Source: Methanobacteriota archaeon (GTDB taxonomy: Archaea; Thermoplasmatota; Poseidoniia; Poseidoniales; Poseidoniaceae). Taken from it: a stretch of DNA of 33,991 bases. The notes below the pieces were generated by a model. It made no database searches, had not been told where the DNA came from, and worked only from the letters and a program-made list of their open reading frames with translations. The number at the start of each line of letters is the position of its first letter. Position 1 is the stretch's first letter. The translations under genes were made by a program, and so were the position numbers. The stretch lies in assembly GCA_009937205.1 (NCBI GenBank), contig JAACCR010000121.1, positions 1-33,991 on the forward strand, written 5' to 3'. Shown in pieces: positions 20,190 through 30,114 of the stretch.

Positions 20190-21539
20190 CTATTCTTCAG
20201 GGGCTGAATACCAACGTCCTTGGAATGAATCATCAGAATTATCAATTCGTACGAAGAGGTCGAGTGATGACCAAACAAGACTGTTGAAACCACTCGCCAT
20301 TCCTTCTTGCCCACCAGCTTTAGCAGTCATGAAATCTAGTGTGTCTGATGGTGAGTGCCATTCTTGCCAGAATGAAATTTCTCCACCAGGGCTGAAGAAG
20401 TTGAAAGTAGGGAAGTCAGCAGAAAAGAACGCACAGTGGTCTGAAGCACATGATTCTGCAATCTGCCAATTAATCGGATTTGCCTCTGTTGGTCTGTATG
20501 AAAGGTCATCTTCTATTGTAGTTCCAACCCACTCGTACATTATCTGCATATTGCTCTCACTTGCACCAGCAATACTAATCTGCCATTCGTATTTTGTTGC
20601 AGAGAAAACTTCTCCACCCGGGCCGATAATTGGTTCTGATGCAGGTATGATTGGGTAGTTCAGAGAAACCATGTCGAAGTTCAGGTACGACTTTACTGTC
20701 ACATTTTCAGGTAAGTGGTTAACATATGCCGAAGAGCCTAGAAGCCCTTCCTCTTCACATGCCCACAATGCTGCAACAACAGTATGATCGAACTCCATCT
20801 TGGCCAATGCTTGAGCCATTTCTAAGGACACAGTAGATCCTGAAGTGTCATCATTTGCGCCTTCGTTTGTACCTCCTCCTGGTGGCGTGAATAAGTAAGC
20901 AATATCGAAATGACCTCCTACGACTATGTATTCGTCAGGATTTATTCTACCCCAATTGTAGCCAACAACATTCAATTGGTCAGGGTCATCATCGTACCGA
21001 GTTACTTCAACGAAATCGAATCCCATTTCCCTCATATCTTCAGCCATTGCTTCAGCCGCAGCTTCGTATGCAGAACCACCTTCGTGAACCGATGCACTAG
21101 CACACCACCTGTTGTTGTGTGAACTGGTTAACATATCGATAGTATCGTAAGCACGCCTACCATCTACAAGCATCATTTCTTGACTATCTTCAAGCATTAG
21201 GGTTGCATTCCAGAATTCGTCACCTGCAGTCACTGAAATGTTAACAGATTCTCTCTCACTGTCCAGTATCAATAATTCAAGTGATTTCTTTTCTGCAGGG
21301 AATGTAGTTGTCAAAGGGTCTCTTAGTACACCAAACTCATCTACATAGAACAATCCTGCAGATCGATTGAATGTCCAGTCCACATTCGAATCCACTTCGA
21401 TAGTCATGTATTGTCCACGAGTAGCCATGGAACTATCAGCGACACTCAGAGTTGGCGCAACATCATCTCCAGCATCTTCTCCGAAGTACCCACTCAAAGG
21501 GGCGAGTACAAGCAATAAAGATAGGAAAAGACAACGCAT
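20190..21539 (-). CDS. Secreted M28-family metallopeptidase
   Basis: Signal peptide MRCLFLSLLLVLAPLSG; zinc-ligand series VVGGHFD, GANDDTSGS, ACEEEGLLGS, LNFDMVS and SDHCAFF. Confidence 0.88.
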   Translation of the reverse strand: MRCLFLSLLLVLAPLSGYFGEDAGDDVAPTLSVADSSMATRGQYMTIEVDSNVDWTFNRSAGLFYVDEFGVLRDPLTTTFPAEKKSLELLILDSERESVNISVTAGDEFWNATLMLEDSQEMMLVDGRRAYDTIDMLTSSHNNRWCASASVHEGGSAYEAAAEAMAEDMREMGFDFVEVTRYDDDPDQLNVVGYNWGRINPDEYIVVGGHFDIAYLFTPPGGGTNEGANDDTSGSTVSLEMAQALAKMEFDHTVVAALWACEEEGLLGSSAYVNHLPENVTVKSYLNFDMVSLNYPIIPASEPIIGPGGEVFSATKYEWQISIAGASESNMQIMYEWVGTTIEDDLSYRPTEANPINWQIAESCASDHCAFFSADFPTFNFFSPGGEISFWQEWHSPSDTLDFMTAKAGGQEGMASGFNSLVWSSLDLFVRIDNSDDSFQGRWYSAPEE

Positions 21540-21543
21540 GTAA

Positions 21544-22833
21544 TCACCACTGACAAGGTTCTAGATGGGTTTTACCACCCATCAATGGTACTAAGCATTC
21601 AGGAACTTTAACACTACCATCTTCAAGTTGATTCTGTTCCATTATTGCAACTAATGCGCGACTAGTAGCGACAGCAGTTGAATTTAGAGTGTGTGCAATA
21701 GGTTGGCCAGCATGGCCTGGTTGGCCATAGCGAATGTTCAATCTATTGGCTTGATAATCAGTACAGTTTGAACAAGAGACGATTTCTTTGTATTGTTCAG
21801 CACCTGGAATCCATGCTTCAAGATCGTACTTTCTTGCCGCAACAGTACCCATATCGCCAGTGCAGATATTGACCACTTCGTAATGAATTGACAAACTATC
21901 CCATAAGTCGATACAATTTTGCAATAATTCTTCTTGCATTTGCCATGATTGCTCTGGTGTTGCGAAAACGATTTGCTCAATTTTTGTGAATTGATGGACT
22001 CGCCAAATCCCTAAATCGGATTGACCGTGTGAACCCACTTCTCTACGGAAACATGGAGAAACAGCAACCATTTTCAATGGTAATTGTTCTTCAGGGATTG
22101 TCTCATCCATGAACATCGCCGTCAATGGGTGTTCAGCAGTGGCTATCATGTAGAATTGTTCAGGTTTAGATCCATACATTACAGTCTCAAAGTCAGACAA
22201 ATCAGTAACGCCTTCGTAGGCTTCTCTATTCATCATAGCAGGGGGCTGAACGAAAGTGAAGCCCCTTTGGCGAATGAACTCAACTGAATATTGCTGTAAT
22301 GCAAATTCTAAGCGAGCCAAGTCACCCTTTAGGAAGAAGAAACGTGAACCAACAATCTTTGCTGCTCGTTTCAAATCAACCCACTTATTCATTTCAATAA
22401 GTTCGTTATGAGTGCGAGGTTCAAAATCAAAAATTGGTTTTTGACCATGAACGCTGTGTTGTGTATTGCCGCCTTCGTCCTCACCTACTGGTACATCAGG
22501 GTGAAGGATATTTGGAATTGACATCCTTATCTTATCTCTTTGAGCAAGAGCTTCATCGGTTGCACTTTCTGCTGTAGTAATCTCTGTTCCTAAATCTGCA
22601 ACTTGAGCCTTAATCTTCTCTGCTTCATCACGGTTTCCTGATTTCATCGCTTCTCCAATGCCTCGAGCAGCGACATTCTTTTGTTTTCTCAGTTGGTTGG
22701 TTTGATGTTGTAATTCTCTCCACTCTATGTCTAAATCAATCACTTGTTGAACTTTATCATGGGCAATACCACGCTTATCGTGATCCGCAAATATCAATTG
22801 CGGGTTTTCTCTAAACAAGGTAATATCAAGCAT
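21544..22833 (-). CDS. serS: Seryl-tRNA synthetase (standard, bacterial/halophile-type)
   Basis: MLDITLFRENPQ N-terminus, coiled-coil arm, and class II motifs including SPCFRREVGSHGQSDLGIWRVHQFTKIEQ and YKEIVSCSNCTDYQANRLNIRY...HTLNSTAVATSRALVAIMEQNQ. Confidence 0.95.
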   Translation of the reverse strand: MLDITLFRENPQLIFADHDKRGIAHDKVQQVIDLDIEWRELQHQTNQLRKQKNVAARGIGEAMKSGNRDEAEKIKAQVADLGTEITTAESATDEALAQRDKIRMSIPNILHPDVPVGEDEGGNTQHSVHGQKPIFDFEPRTHNELIEMNKWVDLKRAAKIVGSRFFFLKGDLARLEFALQQYSVEFIRQRGFTFVQPPAMMNREAYEGVTDLSDFETVMYGSKPEQFYMIATAEHPLTAMFMDETIPEEQLPLKMVAVSPCFRREVGSHGQSDLGIWRVHQFTKIEQIVFATPEQSWQMQEELLQNCIDLWDSLSIHYEVVNICTGDMGTVAARKYDLEAWIPGAEQYKEIVSCSNCTDYQANRLNIRYGQPGHAGQPIAHTLNSTAVATSRALVAIMEQNQLEDGSVKVPECLVPLMGGKTHLEPCQW

Positions 22834-22838
22834 TATTT

Positions 22839-25067
22839 TCACCAACTAATTCCGAAATCTAATAACGATGTTCCAATGAAGAATAATCCTGTGATTAAGT
22901 ATCCTAAAATTGCACCACCATTGAGGAGAGGTAATCCAGCTTGTGCCTTTCCTTGGGCAACGAAATACATCAATGCTGCATATCCGAGTAGGCCACCGAC
23001 CAATGCTCCCATTGCGACAGGTATTGCTGCAGAATCATCGAGCCATTGAGCGCATGATAGAACTAGCATACCAGGGAAGATGACATCGCCAAGACCCATA
23101 AACATCGCTTCTCCACCATTTTTCTTGGCTTTTTTAGTCGTTGTTTGAGCAGATGGTTGAACTGGTATTTCTCCACCCCTATCGCTAATTGATGTTTGAC
23201 CTTCCTTGAATGAGTATCCTTTGCTTTGAGGGGCAACTAGTAGAATTGGTAATCGTAAACCAATCATCGTATCGGCTAATGCAAGCATATGTTTAGACTT
23301 GTAAACCGCCCACGCGTCATATATTGCTGCAACTATCATGAAGATGATTATCAGTGAGGGAACGAATGCAACTCCGAGCATTACGATGACTCCAGAACCA
23401 ACCAATACTCCAACGGTGTTAACCACATACCATTCACTGTGAACATATAGTAAAATCATTAATGCAATAGCAACGATCAACCCAACCATAAATGGTCCAT
23501 CATACAGTTGTAATCCAGTCAATGTCATCATTTCACCGGTTACTTCTCCATGTTTAGCAGTAGTTCCATCATTATCGTAAAGTGCTACAAATTGAGAACT
23601 GGTATTTGACTCATCAACAAAATAACCGGTAGTAAAATTATCATCAACAGGGAATGAAATTCTGTTAACCAGTGCTTCACCATGAAGCCAGTGTGCTGTA
23701 TCACCTGTGGTGATGAGCATGTCTGTATATCCAGAAACATCCAAGTCGGTTAATCTAGCAGACTGAATCGTTTCTCCAAAATCCATCAAATGCATTTTTG
23801 TTTGTTCCACTACTTCAACTTCAGCAGACTGATTCCATTCAAATCCAAGAACATTACCATTATTTTCTCCAATCAGGATAAATCCTGTATCCGCACTAGC
23901 ATTTTCCATTGTCACGCTAGACCATGGCGAATGCCCGAAATCAGAACTTACATAATAGCCGGTAGAATTTCTTACGAATGCAGTTGCAGCAGGTTCAATC
24001 TCAAGTGAAGGCAATAGGGCGCCATTTGTTTCTGCTAATTCAACAATACATACTTGTGTTATAGTGGTGATTAGTAATCTGTCTTCAGAAATAACTTCAG
24101 AATATAGAACTCCATCAGTAATGCCAATATTAGTTGGTAATGACCATGATGCTTGATATACCATTTGTTCTTCAAAAACCCTATAATGATATATCGAATC
24201 ATCGTTGGAAACCATATACATTGAATCATCAATCAGAACTGCCAAAGAACAAGCAGTGTGCATATTTGGTAGAGGAATTACCCCTTGAACAGGATCTACT
24301 AAGTGGCAAGCATATGTATTAATTTTTTCACCACTATCCATATCGATAGTCCAAATCCAAAGACCGTTTGTAAATGTTGCAAGATTGCCATTTAGTACAA
24401 CTCTTGTATCACCCAGATCGTTTCCAGGGTTGCGTTGTTGGTCAACCTGCCATACTGGTTCACCGTCAAACGGCTGGCCGTGCCAATAACTTACAGAATC
24501 ATCCCATGGACCATCGGCTTCCCCAGTCAATTCAGTTGTTAGGAAGCCTTCCATTCCATAATTTACAAGATATGATTCGCTGGTATGGGTTGAGACTTCA
24601 TCGTATTCAAAAGGTTCAGAATCAAAATCAATTACCAACATATGTGCGAGAGGTACTGTTGTGTACATCAATGCAATTGCTAAAATACCCATTATTCCAT
24701 ATTTGATGACCCAGTCCTTTTTGTATTTGGCCAATAGTAAAATCATTATTGTAAAAATAAAGATAAAAGCCAATTCCATTGCGATATATTTGACTTGAGT
24801 AGCACCTGCTTCTCCAAATGCATGCAGACCAGCAATATCATACCAAGGTCTGATAAAAAGTGCAATTAGAATGGTAATAACGAACATAAATGCCATTCCA
24901 AACATCCCGGGTAACTGGTCTTTTATTGAATCCAAAAACGATTCAGCCCGAAGTTCTCTCTCAACTGCAACGAATTCTTCAGAAATATCACGGCCCGTAT
25001 TGTCGGGTTCATTGTCGTCGCTCATAGCAGATGCGAGTTCGGGCTTGCATATGACTGTCACGCCCAT
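22839..25067 (-). CDS. Presenilin/SPP-like intramembrane aspartyl protease with large extracytoplasmic insert
   Basis: Nine predicted TM segments; catalytic motifs YD (FMIVAAIYDAWAVYKS) and GxGD (AMFMGLGDVIFPGMLVLS), and PAL-equivalent LPLL (AQAGLPLLNGGAILGY). About 360 aa of soluble, sequon-containing sequence between TM3 and TM4. Confidence 0.85.
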   Translation of the reverse strand: MGVTVICKPELASAMSDDNEPDNTGRDISEEFVAVERELRAESFLDSIKDQLPGMFGMAFMFVITILIALFIRPWYDIAGLHAFGEAGATQVKYIAMELAFIFIFTIMILLLAKYKKDWVIKYGIMGILAIALMYTTVPLAHMLVIDFDSEPFEYDEVSTHTSESYLVNYGMEGFLTTELTGEADGPWDDSVSYWHGQPFDGEPVWQVDQQRNPGNDLGDTRVVLNGNLATFTNGLWIWTIDMDSGEKINTYACHLVDPVQGVIPLPNMHTACSLAVLIDDSMYMVSNDDSIYHYRVFEEQMVYQASWSLPTNIGITDGVLYSEVISEDRLLITTITQVCIVELAETNGALLPSLEIEPAATAFVRNSTGYYVSSDFGHSPWSSVTMENASADTGFILIGENNGNVLGFEWNQSAEVEVVEQTKMHLMDFGETIQSARLTDLDVSGYTDMLITTGDTAHWLHGEALVNRISFPVDDNFTTGYFVDESNTSSQFVALYDNDGTTAKHGEVTGEMMTLTGLQLYDGPFMVGLIVAIALMILLYVHSEWYVVNTVGVLVGSGVIVMLGVAFVPSLIIIFMIVAAIYDAWAVYKSKHMLALADTMIGLRLPILLVAPQSKGYSFKEGQTSISDRGGEIPVQPSAQTTTKKAKKNGGEAMFMGLGDVIFPGMLVLSCAQWLDDSAAIPVAMGALVGGLLGYAALMYFVAQGKAQAGLPLLNGGAILGYLITGLFFIGTSLLDFGISW

Positions 25068-25639: not shown

Positions 25640-26947
25640 TCATCTCTTCGCTAGCAAACTTAGGTCTTCATCACTATCAAGATATAGCAAACCGAGTATA
25701 TTTCCTTGTAAATACATGGAGCCAAGGCTGACGACAAGACCGACATCATGTGGTTCTTCGTCTTCTATTATTGATAATGCACTTTCGGGGAATTCTACTG
25801 ATGAGATATCGCAATCAATCCCCATGAATTGATTCATCAATTGTTGAGGTTCAATGCCTGGGTATCTCCCTCCCTGTGGAGCGGTGATGATTATTTGACG
25901 AGGTGGATTTTTTTGACAATATTCGAGTAATGGGGCAACAAATGCATCCATTTCTTGCTGAGGTGAAGCTGCAAAAACTAGTGACCATGCTTGAATTTTA
26001 TAACTTTCAATCATATTTGCAACCTCTGGCATTATTCTGGCCATGCCGCTTGGGTTGTGAGCACCATCGAGCAAAAATTCGTGGCCACCAGTTTTCCCAG
26101 CAGGAATAAATTGCATGCGACCAGGCCAACGAATTGAGTTCTTCGCCTGCCACACAGTTGACGTGTCCATTCCGGTTCTCTTCAGTGTTTGATCGACAAG
26201 GATTGCGGCCTCTTGCCGAGTGGTAAGCATCTGTGGAATTTCAACAAAAATTGGCTGAGCTGGAAGTGGTATTTCATCAAGTTCAATGTTTCCAGCGGCT
26301 TGACATTCTTCACGCATTGCCGCTTCGATGCCCTCATCTTCAGGATCGCGAATAATCACTTTGACGCCAGGTCTTGCAATCGCAACCTTCTCCCGCGCTA
26401 TTTTGCAAATATCAGGTCCTAAGATATCGGTGTGTTCGGCAGAAATAGAAGTGATAATGCAGGTGTCGGCCGGAGCAGTCCTAGTAGCATCTAGTCTTCC
26501 CCCCAACCCAGTTTCTAAAATCAATACATCGACATTATGACTAGATGCTGTAACCATCGCACAAAGATATGTGATTTCAAAAAAAGTCAAGTCAATTACA
26601 GGAACTTCTTCACTAATCTGCTTGACTTCCGCTAATGCACTATCAAATAACTCACCAGCGATCGGCACTCCATCAATTCTAATTCTCTCTTCAATTCTGC
26701 TAACATGTGGGGATGAGAATAATACGGCTGAATGACCAGAGAGCTGTACTGAAGCGGCTAATATTGCACAAGTTGTGCCTTTTCCATTGCTTCCTGCTAC
26801 ATGGAAAATATGAGTATTATCAAATTTTAGATTCAATCGATCGAGTGCCTGCTTGGTATTAGGCAAACCCAAAGACATTCCTTTGGACTTAGAGGAATTT
26901 AGCCATTGGCGAACCTCTTCCATAGTCTGACCCATGTCAAGGCTCAT
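25640..26947 (-). CDS. folC: Folylpolyglutamate synthase / dihydrofolate synthase (Mur ligase family)
   Basis: HVAGSNGKGTTCAILAA P-loop, SSPHVSRIEERIRIDG, ETGLGGRLDATR, ISAEHTDILG and LLDGAHNPSGM are FolC signatures. Confidence 0.92.
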   Translation of the reverse strand: MSLDMGQTMEEVRQWLNSSKSKGMSLGLPNTKQALDRLNLKFDNTHIFHVAGSNGKGTTCAILAASVQLSGHSAVLFSSPHVSRIEERIRIDGVPIAGELFDSALAEVKQISEEVPVIDLTFFEITYLCAMVTASSHNVDVLILETGLGGRLDATRTAPADTCIITSISAEHTDILGPDICKIAREKVAIARPGVKVIIRDPEDEGIEAAMREECQAAGNIELDEIPLPAQPIFVEIPQMLTTRQEAAILVDQTLKRTGMDTSTVWQAKNSIRWPGRMQFIPAGKTGGHEFLLDGAHNPSGMARIMPEVANMIESYKIQAWSLVFAASPQQEMDAFVAPLLEYCQKNPPRQIIITAPQGGRYPGIEPQQLMNQFMGIDCDISSVEFPESALSIIEDEEPHDVGLVVSLGSMYLQGNILGLLYLDSDEDLSLLAKR

Positions 26948-27054: not shown

Positions 27055-30000
27055 TCACTGCCAAAAACGACGAGTTCTTGCATATTCCACTTCTGCTTTA
27101 TGAATCGTATGCAATAACGAATCGAGGTCATTTGGAGTCACCTTTCTCAATACACGTTGAGCGGTAGCTTCTCCAATTCCTCTTCCCATCAAACATAGAA
27201 TCGCATCATATCCTCTGTTTGCCACAGTAGTTGCATTCTTCATCATACGCCCCTCATCCTTAGGATCGGTTGAATTAACCCATTCGACAAGCATTTTTTG
27301 CATTCCTTCTCTTGCACAAGCCATCATTAGGCCCTTGCATTTCAAACATTGTTTGACATCGTCCATCTCTTTGTATCTAGCAACTCTAAATCTTCTAGTG
27401 GCTTTACACTTCAAGCAACATAATACGGCTCTTTCATTCTCTAGTCTTAGTTTCAGTCTTGCCCTTACTGCAGCATTATCCCAATTTGGCAATAGCATAT
27501 CTCGGCTATTGTGGTTTGAGATACCCAAAGGACCAGTTGCAGTTATTTCAATATCAATTAAACCAGATTGGATTGCATGAATTATATCTCTTGCACCGAT
27601 GACATCCATTCTTTCATGGAATAACTTTCCAAGAACTTCTTCCATCACCACAGTACCACGGTATTTTTTCAACAGTGATTGGAGATTTATTTTTCTCGGA
27701 TCAACGCCATGCCTTAGTATCGCAAAAGTTTTGGCAACTTGAGCAAATCTCCATCTTACTTGACGAGAATTTGGCAATGTTACACTTAGCAGTCCAGTGA
27801 TTGCATCAGGTGGTGTATCCATCAACCAATTTAGGAAATCACGACCGTTAACACCTGAAACCTGTAACGAGATTCTTGTCGGTTCAACCACTAATCTTCC
27901 CCAGCCACCTGATTTTGTACTGGCCATCGCTAGTAGAAATTGACCAATCGCTTCATTGATTCTTGAACCATTACAGGAATTGATTACTACAGCATCATCT
28001 CTTTCTTCAATGGTTATTTTACGGTCTGTAGGAAGGTGACCAGTTGCTTCAATATGACTACGAATCGCTTCACTGAGCAAACTCATCGCCTCACCATCTA
28101 TAGGATGGTCAGATAATTTCGAGTCGCGTTCTGCAAAGATCCCGTTGACATCTAGGCCAACTTGATTTTCAGTTTCTTCATCATCGCCTTCATCTTCTAA
28201 TCCTTCAAGCAAATTCAAGTCCTCGGCAACCAATTGACGAAGGCGACCAATATCTCTAGCAACTTCTTTTGGCACTGGTGGTAATTCTCCAGTCCATTGA
28301 GGTGCATGGGCTTGGTCGGTAACCGGAGTGACCAGCAATTCTGATTTTTCAGAGTCTGCGTCTATGATTAACCAGGTTCTTCCAGCCATCACGAAACGTC
28401 TTGGAGAGCCATCATCATCCTCACCGGAATCGTTCAAACTCAGTACGAAAGCCTCATCAACGCTTCCCAAACTAGAGCGCGTCACAGCATCTCTAACGCG
28501 ATATTTCTGTTTATCAGGTATCATTGAAAGATGGTTTGTAACCCATTGTCTAGTTCTTCCAGCAGTTGAAATCCAGCCGTTGGAGAATCGTTTTGGAACT
28601 ATGACCTTAATGTTCTTTATAGCATTAGGAATTTCATCTTCTGGTATTGTGAACAGTGGCCTTTCTTCAGGCAACTCTTCACCCTTGGCCAATGCTTCCA
28701 TGCGTGCGAGTTCATACACAGTTTTTGGCCATCTATACCAAGGAATTTCAACTGGATCGGTGCAAATTCTTACAACCCATCCTTCTGATAAGATGGTTGC
28801 AATATTTTCTGTATCCTCTTGACGCCATCGTTCAAATTGACTACTATTGGCAATACTTTCAGTCATCTCTGAAATAGGCACAGCTCCGAAAGAATGAGCC
28901 ATTAATACGATTTGATTTGCAGCAACAGAATAGGGCATATCTCTCCATTCAACAGGCTCAATTTTTCCTTCCATTGCTCGCCTAGCAATGACTGCAGCCT
29001 CTGCCACATCATCTGCATTCCAGGACAATAGATGCCCTCTTCCCAGTCCACCTAAACGGTGGTCTGCTCGACCAACACGCTGTAGCATTGAATCAACAGA
29101 ACGTGGACTTTTCATCTGCACAATACGATTGATTGTTCCAACATCTATTCCTAATTCCAAACTGGATGTACAAACCAAACCAGATAGTTTTCCTTCACGT
29201 AAATCATCTTCCATTTTCTGACGCGTTGCAGCGGCTAAGGAGCCGTGATGAACTCCAATGGATAGGTCGGGCGCCATACTCGACAATCTGCTAGCGATCG
29301 TTTCAGCATCGTTTCTAGAATTGACGAATACCAAACAAGGAGGGTCCTTTCTCAAAATATCATTCAATCTGCGATACGTCGAGTGCTCTCTTGGAGATTG
29401 GATTGATAATTCCATACAACCGATTTCATCTTCAGCTGTTGTAGGTTCTGCTTCTACAGTCAATTTTGTATCTCTATGACCCATTGCAACAACCGCTTTA
29501 CCTTTTTTTGGTGAAAGCCATTCAGCGACTTGTTGAGGGTTGCCGACAGTAGCAGATAACCCAATTCTCTGAACCGGTTGGCCAGTCATTACCTCCAAAC
29601 GAGATAGTCCAATATTCAATTGCCAACCTCTCTCACTGGCCGCCAAATCATGAACTTCATCAACGATTACTACTTTGACACTGGTCAATAATTTTCTCAA
29701 GTTTTTACCAGTAAACATCAACTGGAATGTTTCTGGAGTTGTTACCAATAGGTGTGGTGGATTGCGCACCTGTTTTGCTCTTTCACTCTGAGTTGTATCA
29801 CCATGCCTCAAACCTATTCTGAGACCAACAGCTTCAGCGATTTCAGTCAATCTTCGGTCGACATCTCGATTCAAGGCTCGCAATGGTGTGATGTAGATTA
29901 TCGCTAAAGGATCCCACTCTTCTTCTAGACAGCGATGCAGAATCGGTAATACTGCTGACAGAGTTTTTCCTGAACCGGTAGGTGCGATAATAATTCTATC

Positions 30001-30114
30001 ATCACCCGTCATCAGTTCAGGTATCGCTATCTGTTGTACTGGGGTTGGTTTCCAACCCCGAACTTTCAGTGCTTCTACCAATTTCGGATGTAGGGTGGAA
30101 AATACATTTGACAT
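27055..30114 (-). CDS. lhr: Lhr-like ATP-dependent helicase (DEAD/DEAH superfamily 2) with C-terminal Cys-pair and HhH-like region
   Basis: IIIAPTGSGKTLSAVLPIL, TTPETFQLMFT, VIVDEVHDLA, IGLSATVGNP, VFVNSRNDAE, QRVGRADHR; C-terminal CCLKCKATRRF...QCLKCKGLMM and CLMGRGIGEATAQRVLRK. Confidence 0.9.
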   Translation of the reverse strand: MSNVFSTLHPKLVEALKVRGWKPTPVQQIAIPELMTGDDRIIIAPTGSGKTLSAVLPILHRCLEEEWDPLAIIYITPLRALNRDVDRRLTEIAEAVGLRIGLRHGDTTQSERAKQVRNPPHLLVTTPETFQLMFTGKNLRKLLTSVKVVIVDEVHDLAASERGWQLNIGLSRLEVMTGQPVQRIGLSATVGNPQQVAEWLSPKKGKAVVAMGHRDTKLTVEAEPTTAEDEIGCMELSIQSPREHSTYRRLNDILRKDPPCLVFVNSRNDAETIASRLSSMAPDLSIGVHHGSLAAATRQKMEDDLREGKLSGLVCTSSLELGIDVGTINRIVQMKSPRSVDSMLQRVGRADHRLGGLGRGHLLSWNADDVAEAAVIARRAMEGKIEPVEWRDMPYSVAANQIVLMAHSFGAVPISEMTESIANSSQFERWRQEDTENIATILSEGWVVRICTDPVEIPWYRWPKTVYELARMEALAKGEELPEERPLFTIPEDEIPNAIKNIKVIVPKRFSNGWISTAGRTRQWVTNHLSMIPDKQKYRVRDAVTRSSLGSVDEAFVLSLNDSGEDDDGSPRRFVMAGRTWLIIDADSEKSELLVTPVTDQAHAPQWTGELPPVPKEVARDIGRLRQLVAEDLNLLEGLEDEGDDEETENQVGLDVNGIFAERDSKLSDHPIDGEAMSLLSEAIRSHIEATGHLPTDRKITIEERDDAVVINSCNGSRINEAIGQFLLAMASTKSGGWGRLVVEPTRISLQVSGVNGRDFLNWLMDTPPDAITGLLSVTLPNSRQVRWRFAQVAKTFAILRHGVDPRKINLQSLLKKYRGTVVMEEVLGKLFHERMDVIGARDIIHAIQSGLIDIEITATGPLGISNHNSRDMLLPNWDNAAVRARLKLRLENERAVLCCLKCKATRRFRVARYKEMDDVKQCLKCKGLMMACAREGMQKMLVEWVNSTDPKDEGRMMKNATTVANRGYDAILCLMGRGIGEATAQRVLRKVTPNDLDSLLHTIHKAEVEYARTRRFWQ

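Follow-up and report, generated by a model that had tools for sequence, protein, structure and literature searches.

Presenilin is the protease of Alzheimer's disease, and the choice of substrates by presenilin-type proteases has usually been examined in the human complex, with its four subunits, or in an archaeal enzyme that is compact and carries no ectodomain. Gamma-secretase (presenilin, nicastrin, PEN-2 and APH-1) combines a presenilin-type core with a bulky ectodomain on its outer face, which has been proposed to exclude substrates with long ectodomains. TM3 and TM4 of PS1 contact PEN-2, as does the nicastrin ectodomain (PMC7248309), and nicastrin has been discussed as a barrier to substrates whose ectodomains are bulky (PMC12043953). 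Nicastrin is a separate subunit of this complex. Among the intramembrane aspartyl proteases of the wider family there is a precedent for an ectodomain in cis: SPPL2a/b/c carry an N-terminal lumenal or extracellular domain of the PA fold, on a core of inverted topology, and these PA domains affect substrate recognition (PMC12043953). The archaeal presenilin/SPP homologue (PSH) of Methanoculleus marisnigri (PDB 4hyc) comprises 301 aa and the NCBIfam model of PSH 281 positions; both lack a domain at the TM3-TM4 position. The principal survey of the archaeal proteins is reportedly that of Raut et al. 2021 (Proteins 89:232). A search of the open-access literature found no paper combining presenilin and Poseidoniales; that survey lay outside the search, and prior notice is possible.

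The window analyzed here, a stretch of 33,991 nucleotides, comes from Poseidoniales, an order of archaea that is abundant in the ocean. On its reverse strand lies an open reading frame (positions 22839-25067) of 742 aa, counted from the first ATG. On extending matches to the first residues of this 742-aa query, several relatives showed stop codons, and the true start is therefore probably M15 at position 25025 (MSDDNEPD...), giving a PSH gene with ectodomain of 728 aa (22839-25025, reverse strand). Residues are numbered below in the 742-aa frame. The product matched Pfam PF06550 (6.8e-50, residues 526-730; 170.6 bits against a cut-off of 23.9), the PSH model NF041679 of NCBIfam (7.8e-64; 215.9 bits against a cut-off of 125) and 4hyc (9.7e-33). 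By these matches above curated cut-offs it is assigned to the PSHs of peptidase family A22, which bears out the preliminary description of the frame as a presenilin-like intramembrane protease. The N-terminal ends of these models also match TM1-TM3, more weakly than the C-terminal part is matched.

The protein of the window shares with 4hyc the TM core, the Asp residues of the YD and GxGD motifs and the PAL-type motif. Its core is present in two halves, TM1-TM3 (24630-24908, reverse strand; residues 54-146), delimited by hydropathy and by alignment with compact orthologues, and TM4-TM9 (22842-23498, reverse strand; residues 524-742), delimited by PF06550 and by alignment to 4hyc. The catalytic residues Asp584 of the YD motif in TM6 (Y583-D584; 23316-23318) and Asp661 of GLGD in TM7 (23085-23087), as well as Pro713 of the PAL-type motif GLPLL in TM9 (22929-22931), all on the reverse strand, were unchanged in 80 of 80 aligned homologues. 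The predicted active site is thus intact, and the placing of YD, GLGD and LPLL in TM6, TM7 and TM9, made earlier from inspection of the frame, holds. The hydropathy profile of the 742-aa frame has nine peaks, one of them within the TM6-7 loop region, and TM5 and TM6 are poorly separated. The peak at residues 594-612 (MLALADTMIGLRLPILLVA) comes after TM6, and the 4hyc alignment assigns it to the TM6-7 loop region; of the earlier segment assignment the position of YD in TM6 therefore stands, but this peak had to be reassigned. The presenilin arrangement of the TM segments agrees with the homology to 4hyc and with the charge pattern. Since the TM2-3 loop (4 basic and 1 acidic residues) and the TM6-7 loop (7 and 4) are basic and the insert between TM3 and TM4 is strongly acidic (10 and 60), the insert probably lies on the outside of the cell, in presenilin orientation, and these residue counts uphold the charge argument that had been made for cytoplasmic loops and an external insert.

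The N-x-S/T sequons pointed out earlier in the insert are indeed enriched (316 observed in inserts against 171 expected), but the protease core shows a similar enrichment (48 against 28). They are therefore uninformative on topology and were dropped as evidence for it.

The insert itself (23499-24629, reverse strand; residues 147-523) is taken to be a probably extracytoplasmic domain in the TM3-TM4 loop with a probable beta-propeller fold. The gap from TM3 to TM4 by hydropathy peaks is 377 aa, and at the site of the insert the compact copies of f2, the sister family within Poseidoniales, and of f3 show a short loop, so that the large domain proposed between TM3 and TM4 is real in extent and position. 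Its best conserved motifs are DFGHSPWS (23919-23942; residues 376-383) and the DLDxSGxxD stretch, represented in the window by the FG-GAP-like motif DLDVSGYTD (23721-23747; residues 441-449). Cys254 and Cys273 (24249-24308), like these motifs encoded on the reverse strand, form a conserved pair in the alignment of the window's family (f1), and a disulfide between them is a possible prediction.

In comparison with the three closest of the relatives measured, dN/dS was 0.18-0.21 for the insert and at 0.08-0.13 for the core. The insert is under purifying selection. Identity to more distant family members amounts to 32-44% in the insert and 61-71% in the core. Such fast divergence would fit a role in recognition, and would equally fit a loosely constrained domain. 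A rival reading is a structural ornament, an insert that does no more than stabilise the protease or shield it at the cell surface. Its faster evolution relative to the core agrees with this, and so does its absence from one clade of the order with mostly smaller genomes; a dN/dS near 0.2 and the conserved DFGHSPWS and DxDxxGxxD stretches, however, indicate sequence-specific constraint, and a mere ornament is considered decidedly improbable.

The FG-GAP-like pattern DxDxxGxxD was found in 20 of the 28 inserts of the window's family. In f2 the looser D..G..D form is present in all 15 inserts, the strict metal-type motif in 1 of them. These motifs could point to a ligand sensor, in which an extracellular ligand or ion switches the protease through TM3 and TM4. 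In PS1, TM3 and TM4 shift together with PEN-2 when gamma-secretase changes conformation (PMC7248309), and a domain clamped between these segments could pass on a signal in a comparable way. Nevertheless, the ligand site is putative, the strict motif occurs in only one of the f2 inserts, and compact orthologues persist at the same locus without such a domain. A sensor function therefore appears unlikely.

A PSH match was obtained in 54 of 60 genomes searched, and an order-wide scan found PSH in 294 of 324 genomes. As 339 of 394 sampled Thermoplasmatota genomes have the gene, PSH is probably a housekeeping enzyme in this phylum. Complete copies in f1 form open frames of ~690-830 aa; in f2 the frames are long in some genera and compact in others. 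The insert was present in the fetched representatives of all 11 sampled f1 genera (g1, g11-g20) and in 4 of 11 f2 genera (g5, g7, g9, g21), with a compact PSH in the remaining seven (g2, g3, g4, g6, g8, g10, g22). The architecture, described beforehand as unusual, is so for PSHs generally but is the normal state in Poseidoniales. This distribution bears directly on the suspicion that the insert is an artefact of assembly or gene prediction in which two genes were fused. The assembly of the window is indeed fragmented (152 contigs), but an uninterrupted frame of this kind was recovered from dozens of genomes in several families, among them the single-contig genome G095 with its long form, and the frame is under purifying selection. 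An artefact can be regarded as practically negligible in probability; the insert is not absent from related genomes, and proteins built in this way occur repeatedly in Poseidoniales and in further Thermoplasmatota lineages. No copy of the insert as a separate or second protein was found in 30 genomes searched, including genomes with a compact PSH; apart from that, the search gave a small number of weak, partial matches elsewhere in Thermoplasmatota. No relative was found in the viral contigs searched.

Long and compact copies share the gene order Mur-ligase-like gene, PSH, seryl-tRNA synthetase (SerRS) and are, by this synteny, taken to be orthologues differing by the domain. In the window the SerRS gene (21544-22845, reverse strand), identified by Pfam and synteny, adjoins PSH on one side; the Mur-ligase-like gene (25640-26947, reverse strand), identified by weak Pfam matches below cut-off and by synteny, is the constant neighbour on the other side, here with a dCMP-deaminase-like gene in between. 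Across Poseidoniales the Mur-ligase-like gene next to PSH is often divergent from it. Further conserved surroundings are an M28-family peptidase gene adjoining SerRS (20190-21539, reverse strand), as in several related genomes, and a gene for an Lhr-like DEAD/DEAH helicase of 1019 aa (27055-30114, reverse strand). The f2 genome G047 has two compact PSH matches (C43 and C45) on different contigs, reflecting either a paralogue or a mixed assembly.

The history of the insert was followed on a tree built from TM4-TM9 only. Rows with the insert grouped more closely when the N-terminal half was included, but cutting out the insert could bias such a tree, and preference was given to the one from TM4-TM9. 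On it the PSHs of Poseidoniales fall into a single clade (100/100), within which the compact f2 copies also group together as a clade (99/93). Over the phylum sample four changes in the state of the insert are required on this tree, which does not fix the root within the order. Homology between the f1 and f2 inserts extends over their whole length (hhalign 8e-34). With the insert found in both families, it would be simpler to assume a gain before the f1/f2 split and a single loss in f2. Compact f2 genomes are mostly smaller than long-form ones among the matches listed, which suggests loss during genome reduction. In four further Thermoplasmatota lineages (f11, f26, f33 and f18 with f8) this TM3-TM4 loop holds 236-374 aa. 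A relationship between the f18/f8 and f33 inserts is probable (P 1.6e-4). Profile comparison of the Poseidoniales inserts with those of the other lineages gave no reliable homology, with a best P of 0.005 (f18/f8). A smaller insert of ~102 aa in the same loop was seen in a PSH of family f5 (L063, genome G449).

The preliminary description had recognised propeller-like stretches in the insert. The insert profile mainly matched beta-propellers in the PDB (designed Cake proteins, WD40 and PQQ proteins), the strongest E-values being sums over identical repeats of designed propellers at ~4.5 bits each. Against Pfam the best match of the window's insert was Pep3_Vps18 (E 0.17), with no propeller model above cut-off. 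The f33 insert matched several Pfam propeller families just below their cut-offs, such as the BBS7 propeller (1.2e-5; 25.2 bits against a cut-off of 27), and FG-GAP at 8.6e-4; FG-GAP-like motifs are also present in the f18 and f26 inserts. AlphaFold models of the full protein and of the insert, made from an alignment of six close sequences from which L037 was left out because of runs of N, had mean pLDDT values of 29.6 and 32.9, with mostly beta secondary structure in the insert. In Foldseek searches with both models, every hit whose description reveals its fold was a propeller protein, headed by BamB, at TM-scores of about 0.3 or less; with models at a pLDDT of about 30 these are low-confidence matches. 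Self-comparison of the insert profile by hhalign revealed no internal repeats. Taken together, PDB profiles, f33 Pfam matches and Foldseek form several weak, partly independent lines that make a propeller probable, and the low confidence of both models keeps it at that grade; the propeller likeness proposed earlier is retained in this form, with the poor models and the missing repeats counting against it. That the window's insert is a beta-propeller is considered likely. BamB and the WD40/FG-GAP propellers represent the fold class of the profile and Foldseek matches, but show no detectable orthology with the insert, the sequence of which has no clear repeat signal.

BamB as best match of the insert models raises the idea of a docking scaffold, a domain that links PSH to secretion or envelope machinery and makes no contact with substrates. 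A connection of PSH with secretion is hinted at by a compact Natrinema PSH gene located beside the gene for SRP19. The likeness to BamB, however, derives from low-confidence models, and the genes around PSH in the window serve metabolic, tRNA or nucleic-acid functions, none of them being an envelope partner. A scaffold is accordingly rated as rather unlikely.

Substrate gating or recruitment would be the most likely role of the ectodomain when set against scaffolding, sensing and a structural function, and is given about an even chance, because a domain in the TM3-TM4 loop would cover the face at which PEN-2 and nicastrin make their contact. The ectodomain (~377 aa, a probable propeller) would lie above the external opening of the protease and control the access of transmembrane substrates to the active site. 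Remnants with short ectodomains, such as signal peptides and the stubs left by other proteases, would be admitted, and intact proteins would be kept out or selectively bound. Such a role would resemble those put forward for nicastrin in gamma-secretase, in trans, and for the SPPL2 PA domain, in cis. As the gene persists at its usual locus in one clade of the order that lacks the domain, the ectodomain would modulate a widespread protease and would not be required for catalysis; for retention of the gene it appears dispensable, since the compact clade keeps PSH. A PSH with a folded extracytoplasmic ectodomain that gates or recruits substrates in cis is, as a whole, judged an evenly balanced proposition. 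In contrast to nicastrin, this ectodomain is part of the protease chain, and unlike the N-terminal PA domain of SPPL2 it is a propeller-like insert between TM3 and TM4. More tentatively, and with clearly lower confidence, it may be suggested that archaeal presenilins acquired in this propeller their own substrate gate in cis, on the side of PEN-2 and the nicastrin ectodomain, possibly more than once in Thermoplasmatota, as a single-chain functional counterpart of the multi-subunit complex. A natural single-chain presenilin with its own ectodomain, and with close relatives at the same locus that have none, offers a ready-made comparison of what an ectodomain adds.

Compact PSH cores with long N-terminal extensions in open frames were encountered in L038, L040 and L041 (f31, f32 and f22), with the first hydropathy peak at residue 216, 178 and 149, respectively. 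The extensions are possibly another way to add a domain, or the frames are overlong. Finally, a plasmid of Natrinema thermotolerans (L145) encodes a compact PSH relative of 362 aa, annotated as hypothetical protein, near the SRP19 and Gar1 genes.
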